Assembly: GCA_003156715.1 (NCBI GenBank)
Contig: PMHO01000018.1
Span: 87,617-151,616 of the forward strand
Length of the DNA stretch: 64,000 bases
Origin: Candidatus Tityobacter terrigena
Lineage (GTDB): Bacteria; Vulcanimicrobiota; Vulcanimicrobiia; Vulcanimicrobiales; Vulcanimicrobiaceae
Direction: 5' to 3'
Made by a program: the position numbers and the translations under genes. The notes under the pieces are model-generated. The model was not told the DNA's origin. It made no database searches and saw only the letters and a list, made by a program, of their open reading frames with translations. Shown one piece after another: positions 5,298 through 41,405 of the stretch (position 1 is its first letter; the number at the start of each line of letters is the position of its first letter).

Positions 5298-6347
5298 ATG
5301 GCGAAGGCGCGCGGCGCTGGGCGCGGTAAAGGTGCCGCCGCCGGCCCGGCGCGGGTGCCCAAGATTGCATTGCTGCTGCGCCTGCTGGCCGCAATCGATG
5401 AGGGGCGCCACGGCTTCGCAGCCTTGGCCGAGCGGGTCGATCCCGATAACCCGCCGAGCATTCGCACGTTGCGGCGCTATCTGGCCACGCTCTGCGAGGC
5501 GGGCTTTCCGTGGCATTACGATCGCGAGAGCGGCACGTACCGCTTCGAAAGCGGCTACTCGCTGCGTCGCCTCTCGCTTTCGGGTAGCGAACTGTTCGGG
5601 CTGCTCGCACTGCGCGGCATTGCGACTTCCCTGGGCGGAAACATCGGCGCATCGATGGGCGAAATGACGGAAAAGTTGACGCGCGTTGCCGATCGCGTGA
5701 CGGCCCCTGCGGCGGCCCGCACGGCCGTGCGGTTACAGGTGACCGATCCTCACTTAGACGCCGAGCGGGGCGCCATCTTCGAAATGCTGCAAAAGGCCCA
5801 GCGCGACCGTCAAAGCGTGCGCTTTGGATACGTCGACAAGGCGGGCCGCCGCTCGGCCCGGCACGTCGACACCTACGGCTTCGTCGTGTCGGGAGGCCGC
5901 GTTTACGTCGTCGCGCACGACCGCGGGCGGGGAGCGAAGCGCGTCTTCGCACTCGACGGCATAAGCGGCGCCAAGATCGCGCCGCAACGCTTCACGCTAC
6001 CCGACGACTTCGATATCGAGGCGTTCGCGGCACGCTCGGTCAGCGGAATCATGCACGGCGACCAAGCGATGACGATCACCGTCCGCTTTTCCGCGGTCGT
6101 AGCACGCGCCGCAAAGGCGGACCGCGTGGTTCGCGAACGGTCGCTCGCGGAGCACGGCGACGGCTCGATCGACATTACCTATACCGTTGCGGACTGCGAC
6201 GAATTCGTTCGCTGGACGGCCAAGTGGGGCGCCGAAGCCGAAATCTTGTGGCCGCCGCAAGCGCGCATCCTAGCCCGCGACCTGGCGCTCTCCATCGCAC
6301 GCAAATACGAGGTGGAGGCGCGCGCCGCTTCCAGAAGCGGCGCGTAA
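5298..6347 (+). CDS. WYL-domain transcriptional regulator
   Basis: A 349-residue protein. The N-terminal third (about 20-90) is a winged helix of the DeoR-like kind (TLRRYLATLCEAGFP). The centre and C-terminus form a WYL domain: QSVRFGYVDKAGRR, then GRVYVVAHDRGRG, and the C-terminal extension with a WxxKWGAEAEIL segment. Such regulators bind nucleic acid or small ligands and often control DNA-damage or defence genes; here no target is apparent. The frame is open upstream of 5298, but the ATG at 5298 is the first that gives a normal N-terminus. It is divergent from the substrate-binding protein gene and is followed by a strong hairpin at 6353-6382. Confidence 0.85.
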   Translation: MAKARGAGRGKGAAAGPARVPKIALLLRLLAAIDEGRHGFAALAERVDPDNPPSIRTLRRYLATLCEAGFPWHYDRESGTYRFESGYSLRRLSLSGSELFGLLALRGIATSLGGNIGASMGEMTEKLTRVADRVTAPAAARTAVRLQVTDPHLDAERGAIFEMLQKAQRDRQSVRFGYVDKAGRRSARHVDTYGFVVSGGRVYVVAHDRGRGAKRVFALDGISGAKIAPQRFTLPDDFDIEAFAARSVSGIMHGDQAMTITVRFSAVVARAAKADRVVRERSLAEHGDGSIDITYTVADCDEFVRWTAKWGAEAEILWPPQARILARDLALSIARKYEVEARAASRSGA

Positions 6348-6352
6348 AGCGA

Positions 6353-6382
6353 GCAGGGGCGGTGATCGCTCACCTCCCCTGC
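6353..6382 (+). terminator. Hairpin after the WYL regulator
   Basis: GCAGGGG (6353-6359) pairs with CCCCTGC (6376-6382); inside, GGTGA (6361-6365) pairs with TCACC (6370-6374) around a four-base TCGC loop, with a single mismatch. The stem starts six bases after the TAA of the WYL gene. Only a few T residues follow, so it is terminator-like rather than a classic intrinsic terminator. Confidence 0.5.
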
Positions 6383-6666
6383 CGACGTGCTTCTTCGTGC
6401 GAGCGGCGGTGCGTGTGTCGATTGCTCGACGCGCTCTCCGGCCGGCGTACGGTTTCGATCGGTTTCGTTGGATGTCCGCCGCGAAGCGGTGTTCCAATGT
6501 ATCGGCGATCGCGTTGTCACGCACAACGCACTTCATTGCTGAAGTGTCCGTACTTTAACACCTGGTGTAGGGGGCTGCAAGGGGAACGCGGGCCTGCCCA
6601 CAACGTTTCCACAAGAAAGTCCGTTTATTCGCTGAAATCCACCGCCTATTCACAACGGAGGCTCGT
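6383..6666. other. Non-coding stretch with two small palindromes
   Basis: Between the hairpin that follows the WYL gene and the His-rich secreted protein gene no ORF with coding character is seen. It contains two operator-sized inverted repeats: GCGTTGT-CACGC-ACAACGC (6511-6529) and ACACC-T-GGTGT (6558-6568). Base composition becomes more A+T-rich from about 6535 to 6660. A promoter for the downstream gene is expected here but no pair of -35/-10 boxes with proper spacing could be identified. Confidence 0.45.
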
Positions 6667-7194
6667 TTGCAACCAGCGCGCATCGCTTTCCGGCGAACGT
6701 TCGCGGCCTGCACGCTCGCGCTGATGCTCGGCACGCCGGGCGGCGCCATGTCGGGGCAGCAACCCGACGGACGGCCGGTCGACGGCATTCAATGCCAGCA
6801 GATGGAGGGCGCCGTCTTCCATATCCACCAGCACCTGGCGCTCTTCGATCACGGCAAACCCATCGACATTCCAAGCGACGTGGGGCGGCCGCTGGTCGCC
6901 GGCTGCCTCTATTGGCTTCATACCCATACCCCGGACGGGCTGATCCACGTCGAGTCGCCGGCATTCCGCACGTTCACCCTGGGCAACTTCTTCGATGTTT
7001 GGGGAGAGCCGCTCAGCCCGACCGCGGTGGGTCCCGCGCGCGTCAAGAAAGGCGAGATCCGCGTCTGGGTCGATGGCCGCACCTTCGCGGGCAATCCGCG
7101 TGGAATCGAGCTGGCGCAGCACACCGACATCACGATCGAGGCGGGGCCGCCCTACTCCAAGCCGGCGCCCTTCACGAACTGGCAGGGGCAGTGA
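6667..7194 (+). CDS. Secreted His-rich protein of unknown function
   Basis: A 175-residue protein starting at TTG 6667, chosen because GGAGG lies at proper spacing just upstream and no ATG fits. Residues 1 to about 28 look like a signal peptide (two Arg, then an Ala/Leu-rich core ending near GGAMSG). The mature part contains two His clusters, HIHQH (near 51-55) and HTHTPDGLIH (near 84-93), with Cys at CQQM and GCLYW. The spacing of His and Asp suggests a metal or small-ligand site. The pattern HIHxHLxxF, LHTHxxDGxIHVE and FTLGxFFDxWG recurs in secreted bacterial proteins of unassigned function as I recall them. Possible roles include metal binding; nothing in the neighbourhood decides it. Confidence 0.75.
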   Translation: MQPARIAFRRTFAACTLALMLGTPGGAMSGQQPDGRPVDGIQCQQMEGAVFHIHQHLALFDHGKPIDIPSDVGRPLVAGCLYWLHTHTPDGLIHVESPAFRTFTLGNFFDVWGEPLSPTAVGPARVKKGEIRVWVDGRTFAGNPRGIELAQHTDITIEAGPPYSKPAPFTNWQGQ

Positions 7195-34349: not shown

Positions 34350-35188
34350 TCATCAAGAAAGCCAAGACGCAGGGGTTCTGCTTCGGGGTCGCCATCACGC
34401 TGAAGAAGGCTGAGGAGACCGTTGCTGCCCACGAGCATGTCACGACGCTTGGCCACATCGTCCACAACCCGCAGATGGTCGCCTCCTTCGAGGAAAAGGG
34501 AATGCGCAATGCTGCCTCGGTCGACGAGGTCGACGCCGGGACGCTGTTCGTGCGGGCCCACGGGCTGCCGGTCGAGGTCTTCGAAAAGGCCGGCGCCAAG
34601 GGCCTGACGGTCGTCGACGCGACCTGTCCGATGGTCACGAAGATCCACGTGCAGGCCGAGAAGCTGCGGGCCGACGGCTACAAGATCGTCGTCGTCGGCG
34701 ATCCGCACCATCCCGAGGTCAAGGGGACGCTCTCGCACGTGCCGGGCGCGTGGTGCATTCAAACGCCGCAGGACGTCGACAAGCTCCCCCGCGCCAGCCG
34801 CGTCGGCGTGGTCGTGCAGTCGACCTGGTCCGGTTCGGGCTTCGGCGAGATCGTGCAGAAACTCAGCTCCAAGTACTACGAGGTGCGGGCCGTCAATACG
34901 ATCTGCACGGACACGCACAACCGCCAGTCCGAGGCCGGCCAACTGGCTGAAGAAGTCGAAGTGATGGTCGTCGTCGGCGGCAAAACGTCGGCCAATACCA
35001 AGCACCTTGCCGAGCTTGCCGCGGCCCGCGGCGCCCGCTCGCACCATATCGAAGGCCCCGACGAGTTGCAGCCCGCTTGGTTTGACGGAGTCGAGGTCGC
35101 GGGACTGATGTCGGGCGCCTCCACGCCGGGGTGGCTCGTGGATCAGGTCGAGGAAAAAATGGAGGCACTAAGCCGTCGAGCTAGCTGA
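34346..35188 (+). CDS. ispH: 4-hydroxy-3-methylbut-2-enyl diphosphate reductase
   Basis: 280 residues from TTG 34346, which overlaps the plsC stop as TTGA with GGGGAG about nine bases upstream. The three Cys ligands of the iron-sulfur cluster are in GFCFGV, ATCPMV and NTICTDTHNRQ. Further residues are HNPQ, RAHG and SGASTPGWLV. It catalyses the last step of the MEP pathway to IPP and DMAPP. IspD and IspF of the same pathway are encoded at 46.7-47.9 kb. The following polyprenyl synthetase is a user of its products. Confidence 0.95.
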   Translation: MIIKKAKTQGFCFGVAITLKKAEETVAAHEHVTTLGHIVHNPQMVASFEEKGMRNAASVDEVDAGTLFVRAHGLPVEVFEKAGAKGLTVVDATCPMVTKIHVQAEKLRADGYKIVVVGDPHHPEVKGTLSHVPGAWCIQTPQDVDKLPRASRVGVVVQSTWSGSGFGEIVQKLSSKYYEVRAVNTICTDTHNRQSEAGQLAEEVEVMVVVGGKTSANTKHLAELAAARGARSHHIEGPDELQPAWFDGVEVAGLMSGASTPGWLVDQVEEKMEALSRRAS

Positions 35189-35252: not shown

Positions 35253-36167
35253 ATGATCCGCTATCATTTTGGCTACGATCGCTTCGGGCGCACGATGTCG
35301 GGGAAACGGCTTCGCCCGCAGATCCTTTTGCGCACCGCGCTCGAAGAGGGCGGCACGGTCGAGTGCGCCCTCGACGCAGCCGTCGCGATCGAGATCCTGC
35401 ACAACTACTCGCTCGTTCACGACGACATCGAGGACGGCGACGAGCTGCGCCATGGGCGGACGACGATCTGGGCGCAGTTCGGCGTGGCTCAAGGCATCAA
35501 TGCCGGCGATGCGCTGTGCGCGCTGTCGTACTTAACGCTGCTTCACGAAGAGGCGGTCATACCGAGCGACCGCGTCGTCGACATGCTCGCGGTGCTGCAC
35601 GAAGCCAACTTGCATATGTGCGAAGGTCAAGCACTGGACATCATGTTCGAGACGCAATCGACGGTGACGATGAGCCAATACCTCGAGATGATCTCGGGAA
35701 AGACGGGGGCCTTGTTCGCGGCGTCGTGCGAGCTCGGCGCGCTGGCCGCGGGTTGTCCGCGCGAACGTGCTCGGCAGTACGCGCGTTTGGGCCGCGCGTA
35801 CGGGCGAGCTTTTCAAATTCGCGACGACGCGCTCGGTACGTGGGGGTTGAGCGACATCACCGGCAAACCGAGCGGGGCCGATATCGCGCGGCGCAAATGG
35901 AGCTTTCCCGTGGTCTGGGCCCTTGGCACGCCGCCCTCGGCCGACCGCGAGATCGTGACGGGAGCCTACGCACGCCGCACGCGCCTCGATTCCGCGGGCG
36001 TGGTCGAGGTGATCGGCGCACTCGACCGGCTCGGCGCGCGCAACGCAGCCGATGACGCCCACGACCTAGCTCTGGCGGAAGCGGATGAGGCCGCCGGCGA
36101 GGGGTCGATCGACCGCAGCGGAGCGATCCGCGAATTCTTGGCACAAGGAGCACGGCGCGTTGCCTAG
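35253..36167 (+). CDS. Polyprenyl synthetase family protein, true start upstream and unclear
   Basis: 304 residues from the first ATG at 35253. The first Asp-rich motif is LVHDDIEDGDELRHGR; the second is IRDDALGTWG, where the third Asp is replaced as in the group with DDxxGxWGD...TGKP...D. It would join IPP to allylic diphosphates to make C15-C20 or longer chains. The same frame is open upstream to 35172 and encodes a typical family N-terminus (EVIEAHLARTIERY then SPIYEMIRYHFG), but no ATG, GTG, TTG or CTG occurs there. A non-canonical start, a +1 shift from ispH near CTAAGCC, or a sequence error could explain this. It overlaps the next gene by eight bases. Confidence 0.85.
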   Translation: MIRYHFGYDRFGRTMSGKRLRPQILLRTALEEGGTVECALDAAVAIEILHNYSLVHDDIEDGDELRHGRTTIWAQFGVAQGINAGDALCALSYLTLLHEEAVIPSDRVVDMLAVLHEANLHMCEGQALDIMFETQSTVTMSQYLEMISGKTGALFAASCELGALAAGCPRERARQYARLGRAYGRAFQIRDDALGTWGLSDITGKPSGADIARRKWSFPVVWALGTPPSADREIVTGAYARRTRLDSAGVVEVIGALDRLGARNAADDAHDLALAEADEAAGEGSIDRSGAIREFLAQGARRVA

Positions 36168-39100
36168 CAAGCCGAACGTCAGCTTATCGAGAGCCGATCG
36201 CGCGGCGGCCGTGCGCCCGGCGCCGGGCCCTGCGCCGGCGGCGATGGGCGATGCGGCGCAAAGCGCGCCGCTCTCGACCAACCTCGCGTTAGGCGGCCTG
36301 CTGCTGTTCGCGCTGCTGATCCGGCTCGCGCTGATCGGGGCGGAAGGCTTCAAGAACGACGTCTCCACGTTCGAGGCGTGGGCGCTAACGCTGGCCGAGC
36401 ACTCGACGCGGCAGTTTTACGCGAACACGACCTTCGCCGACTACCCGCCGGGTTATTTTTTCGTGCTGTGGATCGTGGGCCACGCCTACAAGCTTCTCGT
36501 TCACAACGATCCGAACTTCGCGTTGCTCAAGGCTGCGGTCAAGCTGCCCGCGATTCTGATGGACCTCGTCGATACCGTTTTGATCTTTGCGATTGTGCGC
36601 CGCTTCGCGGCGCTGCCGTGGGCCTTTGGCGCTGCGGCGCTCTACGCGTTTAACCCGGCGACGATTTTTATCTCGGCATCGTGGGGCCAGGTGGACTCAG
36701 TCGCAGGCGGCGTGACGCTCGCCTCACTGTTCCTGTTGCTGCTCGCCGACCGGCGAACGGACCGGGCCGGTTGGCTGGTTGCGGCGGCGTGGATTCTGCT
36801 TGCGTATTCGATTTTGATCAAGCCGCCGGCCGTCGTGCTCGTGCCGCTCTACCTGGCGTATCCGTTCACGACCGACGATGCGGCGCTCCGCCTTCGCCGC
36901 ATCGCCGGCAGCGCAGCCGGGGTGGGCGGCGCCTTCGTCCTCGCCTACGTGTGCGCGCTTGCGTTCCACGCGGGATGGAATCCGGTCGCTCAGTTTACTT
37001 GGCTCTACGGCCGCTACAGCTACGCCGCCGGCGTGTACCCTTACAGCTCGATCAACGCCTTCAACCTGTACACGATGCTGCGCAACTTCTGGCAGCCCGA
37101 CAACCAACTGATCCCCGACTGGATGGTCGGCGGCCACGTCATCGGGTTCCCGCAGTACGTGTGGGGCGTCATCCTGCTGCTTTCGGCCGTCGTCCTGGTC
37201 GTTTCGCGCTACGTGCAGCGCCGGGATTCCCCGGCCCTGATCGAAGCCGCGGCGATCCTCTCGCTCGGATACTTCGTGCTCTTGACGCGGATGCACGAGC
37301 GCTACGTGTTCAACGCGATCATGCTCGCGATTCCGCTCGTCTGGTTTCGGCGCCGCTACCTCTACGCGACCGTGCTGCTGACGATCACGCTCGTCTCCAA
37401 TCTCTATTATTCGCTCCACTACCTACAGGTCATGGACGCCAAAGTGCCGGGGATCGATCCGACCAACTTGATGCCGTGGATAAGCCGTCCCGACTCGGTG
37501 CTCAACGTCATGGTCTTTTTCTACCTGGGCTACCGGTACCTGAGCCCGGCCGCCGAGGCGCCCAAGCAGTTTACCTTGGGGGTGGAAATGCGGCGCGCCG
37601 CGGCTGCGGCCCGGCGCTGGTTTTCTCCGCTGGAAGGCGTCGCGCGCATGCTGCCCGTCGACTGGCTGATCGGCGGCAGCCTGACGATCGCTTCATTCGT
37701 GCTGACCTTCGTGGCATATCAATCTCCGCCGGAGAAGATTTTCGACGAGATCTATTACGCCCGGGCCGGCGAGGAATATCTGGCCCACAAGGACATCTTC
37801 GAGTTCACGCACCCCCCGCTGACGAAGCTGATCATCACGGCCTCGATGATGCTCTTCGGGGGATTGCACGGGCATGGCGACACTGCCGCCGGCTGGCGTT
37901 TTCTGAACTTGGTCGTAGGCGCCCTGATGGTGCTGGTGCTCTACGCGTTCGCGAAGCGTCTGACCGGGTCGACCCTGTTTTCCGGCATCGCAGCGGGTCT
38001 GCTGCTCTTCGATGGCTTCCACTTCGCGCAAGCGCGTATCGCGACACCGGAGATCACGGTCGCGTTCTTTTCGCTGCTGACGCTCTACGCGTTTTACCGT
38101 TTCTGGATCGCAAGCCAAGTCCGCGTTGCAGCTTGGTTCGACGAGCGAGCCGCGAGTCGCGGCGGCGTGGCACTCGCGATCGGTACGGTGCTCGCTTTCG
38201 CGCTGACGTTCGTGTTCGGTCGCGGCCAAAGTTCGGCGGCGCACATCGTTGAGTTCATCTACTTCGAACTCGGAGCTTACCTTGCGGTCCGCTTGCTCTT
38301 GCCGCGCCTGGTGCCTTCCCCCGACGTGACGTCGTACGCGGATGGCGCGCGCGTCACGGGCGACGAGCTCGTCACGCCCGACGGGGGCGTCGTGCCGCTG
38401 GGAAAGGGCGCGGTGGTGCCCGGCGGTCTGACCCGCGTCGACAAGAACGCCGGCCTGGCATACACCGACGCCGGCTTGCGCATCGAGTACGCGCGCAGCG
38501 GCGAGATGCGCTACGTTACCCCGGAGGGCGAGGCGCGCTTCGAGCCGGCCGGAACGATGCTGGCAGGCGGCGCGGCCATCGACGGTCGGCGCGACGCCCG
38601 GCTTTGGATGTGGCTGCTCGCACTTTCGGCCGGATGTCTTGGGGCCTGCAAATGGAACGGCCTGTTCGACTTCTTCGTCGTTTGGTTGCTGGCAGGATTC
38701 GTAGTCGCCCAGATCTCGTGGGCCGAACTGGCGCGCGGCATTGGTCTGGGCAAGGTGGTCGTTCGCCCCGCCAGTTGGGGAAATCCGTTCGGCTTTTCGC
38801 TCGACATGGTCGTTGCGTCGATGCTGTTCGTCGGTGCGACCATCTACGTGCTGTGCTACATTCCGTACTTTCTTCTGGGGCATTCGATCAGCGACTTGGT
38901 CGAGCTGCAGTACGGCATGTACCACTATCACGCGACGCTGGTTGCGACGCATCCGTATTCCTCGAGGTGGTGGCAATGGCCGCTCCTGCAAATCCCGATA
39001 TCGTACTACTACCACGATTTTCGAACGGGCGGTCAGGCGCAGTTGGGTTCGGCCTGTTGCGTCGCCGAGATCCTCGCCCTTCCCAACCCGCTGATGTGGT

Positions 39101-39513
39101 GGACGGGTCTGGTCTCGGTACCGCTTGTTGCTTGGCTTGCGTGGAGCGAGCGCCGCAAAGGATACCTATTGCTGGTGGTGGCGTACTTTCTGCAGTGGCT
39201 GCCCTGGATTGCTTCGCCGCGCCTTTCGTTCGAGTACCACTTCCTGCCGAATCTTGCCATCATTTGCTTGGCGGACACGATCCTCTTGCAGCGCATTTGG
39301 CGCCTCGGCGAGCGGCCGGCGAACGCAGCCGGCGAGGACGCGCCGAGCTGGCCTCGTACGGCGGTGGTGGCGTATCTGGCCGCGATCGTCGCCGCCTTCA
39401 TCTTCTGGTATCCCGTCGTCGCCGGCACGCACGTCACCTACGATGCTTGGAACCAGCGTATGATTACGTGGCTAGAGGGGAACAACTGGATCAACCCGCA
39501 TCCGGGAAGCTGA
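36160..39513 (+). CDS. Tandem GT-C membrane glycosyltransferase (unknown GT-C module + PMT/GT39 module)
   Basis: 1117 residues from TTG 36160 with AAGGAG nine bases upstream. The N-terminal module (about 40-470) has about ten membrane segments and GT-C features: KNDVSTFEAW in the first loop and DYPPGYFFVLW. The C-terminal module (about 500-1117) is a protein O-mannosyltransferase type: FDEIYYARAGEEYL with the Asp-Glu pair (529-530), THPPLTKLI, AQARIATPE, and a PMT C-terminal segment. A soluble insert of about 90 residues (720-808, TPDGGVVPLGKG, TPEGEARFEP) interrupts the second module between membrane segments. Both modules would use polyprenyl-phosphate sugars and act at the outer face of the membrane. 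The polyprenyl synthetase is directly upstream. Confidence 0.88.
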   Translation: MPSKPNVSLSRADRAAAVRPAPGPAPAAMGDAAQSAPLSTNLALGGLLLFALLIRLALIGAEGFKNDVSTFEAWALTLAEHSTRQFYANTTFADYPPGYFFVLWIVGHAYKLLVHNDPNFALLKAAVKLPAILMDLVDTVLIFAIVRRFAALPWAFGAAALYAFNPATIFISASWGQVDSVAGGVTLASLFLLLLADRRTDRAGWLVAAAWILLAYSILIKPPAVVLVPLYLAYPFTTDDAALRLRRIAGSAAGVGGAFVLAYVCALAFHAGWNPVAQFTWLYGRYSYAAGVYPYSSINAFNLYTMLRNFWQPDNQLIPDWMVGGHVIGFPQYVWGVILLLSAVVLVVSRYVQRRDSPALIEAAAILSLGYFVLLTRMHERYVFNAIMLAIPLVWFRRRYLYATVLLTITLVSNLYYSLHYLQVMDAKVPGIDPTNLMPWISRPDSVLNVMVFFYLGYRYLSPAAEAPKQFTLGVEMRRAAAAARRWFSPLEGVARMLPVDWLIGGSLTIASFVLTFVAYQSPPEKIFDEIYYARAGEEYLAHKDIFEFTHPPLTKLIITASMMLFGGLHGHGDTAAGWRFLNLVVGALMVLVLYAFAKRLTGSTLFSGIAAGLLLFDGFHFAQARIATPEITVAFFSLLTLYAFYRFWIASQVRVAAWFDERAASRGGVALAIGTVLAFALTFVFGRGQSSAAHIVEFIYFELGAYLAVRLLLPRLVPSPDVTSYADGARVTGDELVTPDGGVVPLGKGAVVPGGLTRVDKNAGLAYTDAGLRIEYARSGEMRYVTPEGEARFEPAGTMLAGGAAIDGRRDARLWMWLLALSAGCLGACKWNGLFDFFVVWLLAGFVVAQISWAELARGIGLGKVVVRPASWGNPFGFSLDMVVASMLFVGATIYVLCYIPYFLLGHSISDLVELQYGMYHYHATLVATHPYSSRWWQWPLLQIPISYYYHDFRTGGQAQLGSACCVAEILALPNPLMWWTGLVSVPLVAWLAWSERRKGYLLLVVAYFLQWLPWIASPRLSFEYHFLPNLAIICLADTILLQRIWRLGERPANAAGEDAPSWPRTAVVAYLAAIVAAFIFWYPVVAGTHVTYDAWNQRMITWLEGNNWINPHPGS

Positions 39514-39589: not shown

Positions 39590-40339
39590 ATGTCAGGGCA
39601 TTCGAAGTGGCATAACATCCGGCTCCGCAAGGGGAAAGCCGACGCGCAGCGCGGGGCGCTGTTCACCAAGCTTTCGAAGGAGATTATCCTCGCCGCCAAG
39701 AGCGGCTCGACGGATCCCGAAGCGAACTCGCGCCTCAAGATGGCCGTCGAGAAGGCTCGCGAAAACAACGTTCCGGTCGAAAACATCAAGCGCGCGATTG
39801 CGCGCGCGGCCGGCGGCGACGGCAGCAAAGACATCGAGGAGATCCGCTACGAGGGTTACGGTCCGGCCGGCGTCGCGGTCGTGCTCGACGCCGCAACCGA
39901 CAATCGCAACCGCACCGCGGCCGAGCTGCGCTTCCTCTTTAGCCGACACGGCGGGACGCTCGGCGAGTCAGGCTCGGTTGCATGGATGTTCGAATCGCGC
40001 GGCTTGATCGAAGTCGAAAACGGGACGCTCGACGAGGATGGCCTAACCGAGGCAGCCCTCGTCGAGGGCGTCATCGATGTGCGCTACGATGCCGACGGAC
40101 GTTCCGAGATCGTGACCGAGCCGGCGGCGCTCGCCGCCGCGCGCGAGCGCTTGGCGGCGGCCGGACTACGCGTGACCTCGCTCGCGCTTGGGGTCGAGGC
40201 GAAGCAGAACGTTGCGCCGGCCGGCGACGACGCGCGCGAAGTACTGCGCTTCCTCGACGCGCTCGAGGAGCACGAAGACGTCCAACGGGTCTATTCCAAC
40301 GCCGAACTCGACATCGCGCAGATCGAAGCGCTCGCCTAA
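39590..40339 (+). CDS. yebC: YebC/PmpR-family protein
   Basis: 249 residues, typical length. The N-terminus MSGHSKWHNIRLRKGKADAQRG and the following FTKLSKEIILAAKSG are diagnostic, as are NNVPVENIKRAI and YEGYGPAGVAV. The family is described both as transcriptional regulator and as translation factor acting on polyproline stalls. It is cytoplasmic. In many bacteria it precedes ruvC, which is absent here; instead a PASTA protein follows after 16 bases. Confidence 0.95.
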   Translation: MSGHSKWHNIRLRKGKADAQRGALFTKLSKEIILAAKSGSTDPEANSRLKMAVEKARENNVPVENIKRAIARAAGGDGSKDIEEIRYEGYGPAGVAVVLDAATDNRNRTAAELRFLFSRHGGTLGESGSVAWMFESRGLIEVENGTLDEDGLTEAALVEGVIDVRYDADGRSEIVTEPAALAAARERLAAAGLRVTSLALGVEAKQNVAPAGDDAREVLRFLDALEEHEDVQRVYSNAELDIAQIEALA

Positions 40340-40355
40340 TTTGGCGCTGCGCACG

Positions 40356-41405
40356 ATGGTCGAGGGCGCACCGCGCGAGACGCGTCGACGCCGCCCGTGG
40401 CTGGCGCGGCAGGATTGGTACTTTGCGATTGCGCTAGCGAGTTTCGTCGGCGTAGCGGTATGGTTTGGGCGCGCGATCGAGGATTTCTTCACCCCTCCCT
40501 CGCGCGACATTCCGGCGCCGATGCTGGTGGGTGAAACCTTATCCGATGCACTGCAATCGGCCTCGAGCGCCAAGGTCTCGGCGGTCGTGGTCGCCAGGCA
40601 TTCCAGCGATCGCTATCCCAAAGACGTGGTGATGCGCCAGGATCCGGCTGCCGGCGCGCGGGTCCGCGCGGGCCGGCAAATCTCGCTCGTCGTTTCCAAC
40701 GGCGTTCAAATCTTTGCGATGCCCGACCTGCGCTACGAATCGCTGCGCGAGGTTGGGCTCGACCTCTCGCACGACCAGCTCACGCTCGGTAAGGTCCACT
40801 ACGTGCTCAGTGCCGATGCGGAGCCCAATCAGGTCGTCACGCAGGATCCGGCGCCGCTCACCGCCGTACGCCCCGGCTCGGTCGTCAACCTCGAAATCGC
40901 AAAGAGCGCCGGCTCCGCTCAAAAGGCGCCCGACTTCGAAGGAAAATCGATCGACGAAGCGCGCGATATGGCGGCAGCGGACCACATGCGGCTCGGTCAG
41001 GTCGTCTGGACGCCGTTCGGGCGCAACGGACCCCCGCGCGGCGAAGTCGTGCGCCAGGTTCCCGGCCCAAGCGCCCCGCTCGATTCCTCGCAGCTCGTCT
41101 CACTGCAAGTCAGCGCCGGCCCGCGAGAAGCGGGGTATCTCGTGCGGCAGGTCCACGCGACGGTGTTCGCCCCCGACCTGACCGGTACCGCGACCACGCA
41201 GAACGTTCGAATCGAGGTGCGCGACGAGACGGGAACGTGGAACGTCTACGACGCCTTCGCACAGCCCCGGCAAAAACTTGATTTCAATCTGACGGTCATC
41301 GGCACGTCGGAGCTCGACGTGTACGTCAACAACGAACTGCTCGACTCGACGCAGCTGGGCGTCGAGCCGCCGCTGTCGAAACAACCGACGAAGGAGAAGC
41401 CGTGA
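40356..41405 (+). CDS. PASTA-domain membrane protein without kinase
   Basis: 349 residues. A short basic cytoplasmic tail precedes a membrane segment (about 22-40, YFAIALASFVGVAVWFG). Three PASTA domains follow (about 50-115, 116-185 and 186-255), with the repeating VV-x-QDPAAGARVRAG pattern (VVMRQDPAAG, VVTQDPAPL, VVRQVPGP). A C-terminal beta-rich domain of about 85 residues ends with ELDVYVNNELLDS. PASTA domains bind muropeptides or beta-lactams in Ser/Thr kinases and penicillin-binding proteins; here neither enzyme is present. It is cotranscribed with rpe (four-base overlap). The start is ATG 40356; TTG 40341 is possible. Confidence 0.82.
   Translation: MVEGAPRETRRRRPWLARQDWYFAIALASFVGVAVWFGRAIEDFFTPPSRDIPAPMLVGETLSDALQSASSAKVSAVVVARHSSDRYPKDVVMRQDPAAGARVRAGRQISLVVSNGVQIFAMPDLRYESLREVGLDLSHDQLTLGKVHYVLSADAEPNQVVTQDPAPLTAVRPGSVVNLEIAKSAGSAQKAPDFEGKSIDEARDMAAADHMRLGQVVWTPFGRNGPPRGEVVRQVPGPSAPLDSSQLVSLQVSAGPREAGYLVRQVHATVFAPDLTGTATTQNVRIEVRDETGTWNVYDAFAQPRQKLDFNLTVIGTSELDVYVNNELLDSTQLGVEPPLSKQPTKEKP

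Follow-up and report, generated by a model that had tools for sequence, protein, structure and literature searches.

A conserved fusion of two unlike GT-C glycosyltransferase modules encoded in Candidatus Tityobacter terrigena

The window, that is, the whole stretch of 64,000 nucleotides analysed in this work, carries a frame of 1117 codons open at 36160-39513 (+), in agreement with the original prediction of a 1117-residue protein at this place. The entire two-module GT-C protein (36160-39513, +; 1117 aa) starts with a TTG at 36160, 9 bases downstream of a Shine-Dalgarno sequence, AAGGAG (36145-36150, +), which was read from the sequence. The TTG start, the overlap of eight bases with the stop of the upstream prenyl-synthetase gene and a Shine-Dalgarno-like sequence are also present in four close relatives (L075, L079, L080 and L081), and this recurrence means that the overlap, which had also been predicted, is real in this group. 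The ATG at 36085 was considered as a start but was not preferred, since the TTG has both the Shine-Dalgarno sequence and the conserved overlap, while an artefact of assembly or a frameshift was ruled out by the presence of the same open frame in about 97 genomes. The single chain is composed of two different, apparently intact GT-C glycosyltransferases. A model of the full-length protein gave a pLDDT of 91.3 and a pTM of 0.83, the C half matching Pmt4 and the N half ALG6 in Foldseek, and the two modules are joined by a basic linker (residues 462-500; 37543-37659, +; RRAAAAARRW) with a pLDDT of 65-68 at its start.

The N-terminal GT-C module (module 1, residues 41-461; 36280-37542, +) has a fold of the ALG6/GPI-mannosyltransferase-I type, and its AlphaFold2 model (residues 41-461, approximately) reached a pLDDT of 93.1 and a pTM of 0.92. 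Searched as a single sequence, the N half of the window protein (its first 497 residues) found no match in Pfam, NCBIfam or PDB sequences, and as regards GT57 (ALG6/ALG8) or GT50 (PIG-M) proper it did not reach the Pfam cut-off. Among proteins of solved structure, a profile of 35 N halves matched a single kind, GPI mannosyltransferase 1 (E 4.9e-6), and single members of this alignment matched families of the GT-C clan, namely PMT_2 (17 of 35), GT87 (7 of 35) and Alg6_Alg8 (9 of 35, all weak, with a best E of 5.6e-5). Furthermore, Foldseek with the N-half model retrieved ALG6, GPI mannosyltransferase I, PIG-U, ArnT, ALG3 and PimE (with 6snh, 9wno, 9s6r and 9dm7 among the structures). Both GT57 (ALG6) and GT39 (PMT) are GT-CA enzymes in the classification quoted in PMC10920833 and PMC12041525, and the N half has the GT-CA fold in its model, with a conserved Asp, D67, at the first juxtamembrane helix. 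This residue (36358-36360, +), placed where the helix begins, is the presumed catalytic base of module 1 by analogy with D58 of PimE (PMC12041525), and it is Asp in the 63 of 63 sequences with a residue at that position. In the alignment of 64 full-length proteins, one row of which is cut before D94, the invariant residues of the N half included D67, D94, K128, D135, Q177, D179, K221, H379, E380 and R381. Most of these lie within four motifs: FADYPPGY (92-99; 36433-36456, +), with D94, Y95, P96, G98 and Y99 invariant; NP...WGQVD (165-179; 36652-36696, +), with N, P, W, G, Q and D invariant in 64 sequences; KP (221-222; 36820-36825, +), where both K221 and P222 are invariant; and TRMHERY (376-382; 37285-37305, +), with H379, E380 and R381 invariant.

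The C-terminal module (module 2, residues 501-1112; 37660-39495, +) is of the PMT/GT39 type, as shown by Pfam matches above the gathering scores, by its motifs and by its fold. PF02366 (PMT) was matched at 507-690 (E 2.7e-14, 53.8 bits against a gathering score of 22.7) and PF16192 (PMT_4TMC) at 911-1102 (E 3.7e-24, 85.8 bits against 32.4), a profile of 29 C halves matched Pmt4, Pmt1 and Pmt2, and the best Foldseek match was Chaetomium Pmt4 (9i5k; E 3.4e-9, TM-score 0.69 by target). The presumed catalytic acidic motif, FDE (528-530; 37741-37749, +), aligns with the FDE of Pmt4, its D and E being present in 64 of 64 sequences, so that the PMT/GT39-like second half with a DE pair at 529-530 that had been predicted is upheld. 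The THPPLTK motif (550-556; 37807-37827, +) aligns with the HPP of Pmt4 and has H551 and P553 in 64 of 64, whereas in the counterpart of the R-x2-[Y/F] motif described for MtPMT (PMC12331936), R1021-x2-F1024 (39220-39231, +), the Arg occurs in all 64 and position 1024 is F in 57 and W in 7. The residues of the C half invariant in the 64 aligned proteins were D529, E530, H551, P553, R580, R626, H924, H931, Y933 and R1021. The cut-off of the NCBIfam equivalog for bacterial protein O-mannosyltransferase (NF058602) was not reached (58.9 against 800 bits), and the protein is therefore not assigned to that equivalog; the score is so far below the cut-off that the acceptor could be other than protein.

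The two halves are different types of GT-C, with no real profile similarity between them (hhalign probability 3%). This rules out a tandem duplicate of one GT-C, as the halves do not align. It also bears on whether residues 1-500 might be the non-catalytic part of a long PMT, the case which the original prediction had named as fatal to its own reading: the ALG6/PIG-M-type fold, the free-standing relatives and the hhalign result exclude it, the N half being a separate and complete GT-C fold. In fact, Pfam, profile and fold searches of each half delivered what had been anticipated, two distinct GT-C modules, each with an acidic motif of its own. N modules also occur as separate proteins of 450-500 aa, both in the genome of the window (C14, C23) and in others, and one true free-standing C module was found (G087), which shows that either module can occur by itself. 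The C halves that seemed to be unfused in G120 and G122 were rejected as contig-end cuts. In the genome with the true C module, the stand-alone PMT module of 619 aa (L050, G087 C63, 3110-4966) and the end of the fused gene overlap, so that three GT-C modules follow one another. Other arrangements were also observed. A protein of 949 aa (L165, G123 C23, 2020-4866) combines an N-type module with a weak Mannosyl_trans4 match (E 1.2e-4) beside an adjoining GT87 gene, and may be another, independent GT-C/GT-C fusion within this class, and in another class a distant N-type module carries a C-terminal NPCBM domain (L164, G014 C346, 2584-4326; E 8.4e-35).

The fusion is widely distributed in the class, which consists of soil bacteria of the Eremiobacterota. 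The N half found a match in 112 of 117 class genomes, in about 97 of which it lies within a frame of at least 980 aa, and the shorter frames that were inspected were contig-end pieces. None of the 32 sister-class genomes examined was found to contain the fusion, and a plasmid search with the N half gave no match. Among the best 80 of 586 relatives, in every case where the gene was readable it encoded the fusion or a fragment of it truncated by a contig end; the named relatives were mainly Eremiobacterota MAGs, with a few records under another phylum or under none. The cultured Vulcanimicrobium alpinum WC8-2 also carries the fusion (G118, L055), where the gene stands outside the conserved operon, with neighbours that, on inspection of the sequence alone, resemble a luciferase-like oxidoreductase and an AMP-dependent ligase. 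The trees of the N and C halves gave the same main groups (f3, f2 and f1), the window protein belonging to family f1. When the stand-alone N modules were included, a single clade of fused N modules was rejected by the tree (AU p 0.017, with long branches), which we read, tentatively, as a derivation of the stand-alone copies from inside the fused group. The conservation of the motifs indicates selection for the activity of each module, and is silent on whether the acceptor is shared.

Between the fourth and fifth core helices of the PMT module, after an extra transmembrane hairpin (about 662-717), lies a soluble beta-sheet insert (722-808; 38323-38583, +), predicted with 11 strands at a pLDDT of 93-98 and aligned across the class, which gives a structure to the hydrophilic stretch previously noted in the second half at 720-808. 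Part of family f3 (L042-L045) has no extra hairpin, the sheet coming directly after the fourth core helix, and L059 is without the beta sheet. Foldseek gave weak matches to CPAP/TCP10 G-box sheets, Tcp10_C was weakly matched by 4 of 30 insert members (best 0.0015), and a repeated Y-x-D-G/P-D-G pattern is visible in the alignment. The insert is not a MIR domain, the luminal beta-trefoil of eukaryotic PMTs, since it has no Pfam MIR match, sits at another position and is weakly G-box-like. The known PMT topology, with a cytoplasmic N-terminus (PMC12331936), would place the insert in the cytoplasm, where it is probably located; that it docks a cytoplasmic partner is a guess.

In most of the class the genes of this neighbourhood follow one another as plsC-ispH-prenyl synthase-fusion-yebC-PASTA-rpe-thiL. 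In the window, ispH (34376-35188, +; TIGR00216 above cut-off) is followed by the gene of an E-type short-chain prenyl diphosphate synthase (35253-36167, +; PF00348, GGPP/FPP-like in NCBIfam), which adjoins the fusion in most relatives, and downstream come a YebC/PmpR family gene (39590-40339, +) and a PASTA-domain membrane protein (40353-41405, +; three copies of PF03793). The highest NCBIfam score of the synthetase, 246 bits, was to the model for cargo polyprenyl transferases of family 2 encapsulins and lay below its cut-off of 450. Undecaprenyl carriers are made by the cis-prenyl transferase family, whose members in the window's genome are encoded elsewhere (C46, C40). The upstream gene had been proposed as a possible maker of the carrier; as an E-type short-chain enzyme it is not a direct carrier maker, so this proposal does not stand as worded, and the synthetase may rather feed precursors. 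A closer link with donor supply was found in family f3 only, where nine genomes have a GT2 gene between the fusion and yebC, directly after the fused gene (in L036, at 6070-6846), and a tenth (L039) shows the start of such a gene before its contig ends. The best NCBIfam matches of this GT2 gene are polyprenyl-phosphate-sugar synthases of the PpgS, PgfS and ArnC type, all below cut-off. It is likely a pathway partner, and its adjacency is better evidence of coupling than that of the prenyl synthetase. Family f1 lacks this link, the nearest GT2 matches in the window's genome being 29-37% identical and unlinked.

GT-C enzymes usually have one active site per chain, and the chains act serially as separate proteins. 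In this context, the nearly class-wide retention of the fusion suggests that two sugar-adding steps are coupled. The reading we put forward, and to which we give an even chance, is that of a fused enzyme of two GT-CA transferases whose modules both add sugars to one periplasmic acceptor. Each module would take a monosaccharide from polyprenyl phosphate at the periplasmic face of the inner membrane; the donor would first be synthesised in the cytoplasm, by a GT2 polyprenyl-phosphate-sugar synthase, and then flipped. Like other PMTs, module 2 would attach the first sugar to a Ser/Thr residue of proteins that are secreted or lie in the membrane, while module 1 would extend that sugar or add another to the same glycan. 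The twelve membrane helices of module 1, counted on the model, have basic cytoplasmic ends, and such an even number would bring both active sites to one side of the membrane. From the conserved fusion we infer sequential use on one acceptor; inferred, too, are the periplasmic orientation, the catalysis, the order of action, the identity of the sugars and the protein nature of the acceptor. More tentatively, the PMT site might pass the acceptor on to the ALG6-like site and so build a disaccharide or a branched O-glycan on secreted proteins, with the insert docking the GT2 enzyme and the whole forming a class-wide O-glycosylation system of the Eremiobacterota.

Stand-alone N modules occur in other settings; in L159, for instance, the genes next to one encode an FAD amine-oxidase-like protein and a polysaccharide deacetylase. 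Modules of this type can thus serve in glycan or lipid pathways, and it is conceivable, if somewhat unlikely, that both modules are active on different acceptors or in different pathways (for example, proteins for module 2 and a lipid or polysaccharide for module 1). The fusion would then fix expression, stoichiometry or donor supply, and a common need for polyprenyl-phosphate sugar would explain it. Nevertheless, co-expression is already given by the operon, and a class-wide fusion with congruent trees fits the shared handling of a substrate better.

A further question is the nature of the acceptor, which might be a lipid or a cell-surface glycan, as for ALG6, PimE, ArnT and the arabinosyltransferases, the PMT-like half having changed its acceptor. 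This would agree with the N half being nearest to enzymes with lipid acceptors (ALG6, GPI mannosyltransferase I and PimE), with the C half falling far under the NCBIfam Pmt equivalog cut-off and with the lipid and isoprenoid genes of the neighbourhood (plsC, ispH, prenyl synthase and plsX), but we regard it as improbable, given that by both profile and fold the C half is nearest to protein O-mannosyltransferases and has their FDE, HPP and R-x2-F motifs and the PF16192 region. Finally, the fold search with the N half also retrieved PIG-U, which shares the fold but is not a transferase, and this raises the case that only one module is catalytic and the other a pseudo-enzyme with a structural or regulatory part to play, the role that PIG-U has in the GPI transamidase. 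Since the main motif residues do not vary in either half across the 64 proteins, and the N half has active transferases as its two best fold matches, this is very improbable.

Returning to the reading of two sugar additions on one acceptor, a class-wide fusion of unlike GT-C enzymes represents a natural test of physical coupling between successive transfers from polyprenyl-phosphate sugars, and is a sign of a glycosylation pathway in the Eremiobacterota that is uncharacterised and probably general. It is open to testing, since the fusion occurs in the cultured type strain V. alpinum WC8-2. No published description of a fused GT-C enzyme, or of the glycosyltransferases of this phylum, was found in a literature search of partial coverage. 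Each module is of a known kind, and the novelty, within the literature searched and this phylum, lies in a single chain that combines two unlike GT-C enzymes.

Among known systems, the C half shares PF02366, PF16192, the FDE, HPP and R-x2-[F/Y] motifs and the Pmt4 fold with yeast Pmt4, Pmt1/Pmt2 and M. tuberculosis MtPMT. Those PMTs are single-module proteins (fungal chains in the PDB of 759-817 aa; a bacterial model of 530 positions) and, unlike the fused protein, have no second GT-C at the N-terminus, and no MIR match was found in the fusion, whose beta insert sits at another place. The bacterial GT87/PMT_2/Alg6_Alg8-like transferases (about 450-500 aa) are the stand-alone relatives of the N half, found in the same class and, as more distant forms, in other classes; they have no second module, save for the 949-aa protein in G123. 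With ALG6 (GT57), PIG-M (GT50), ALG3 and PimE, the N half shares the overall fold (TM-score 0.52-0.64 normalised by query) and the invariant Asp at the beginning of the first juxtamembrane helix, at an identity of 11-18% in the fold alignments. The window protein differs from them in that its N half reaches no family cut-off and is joined to a PMT module.
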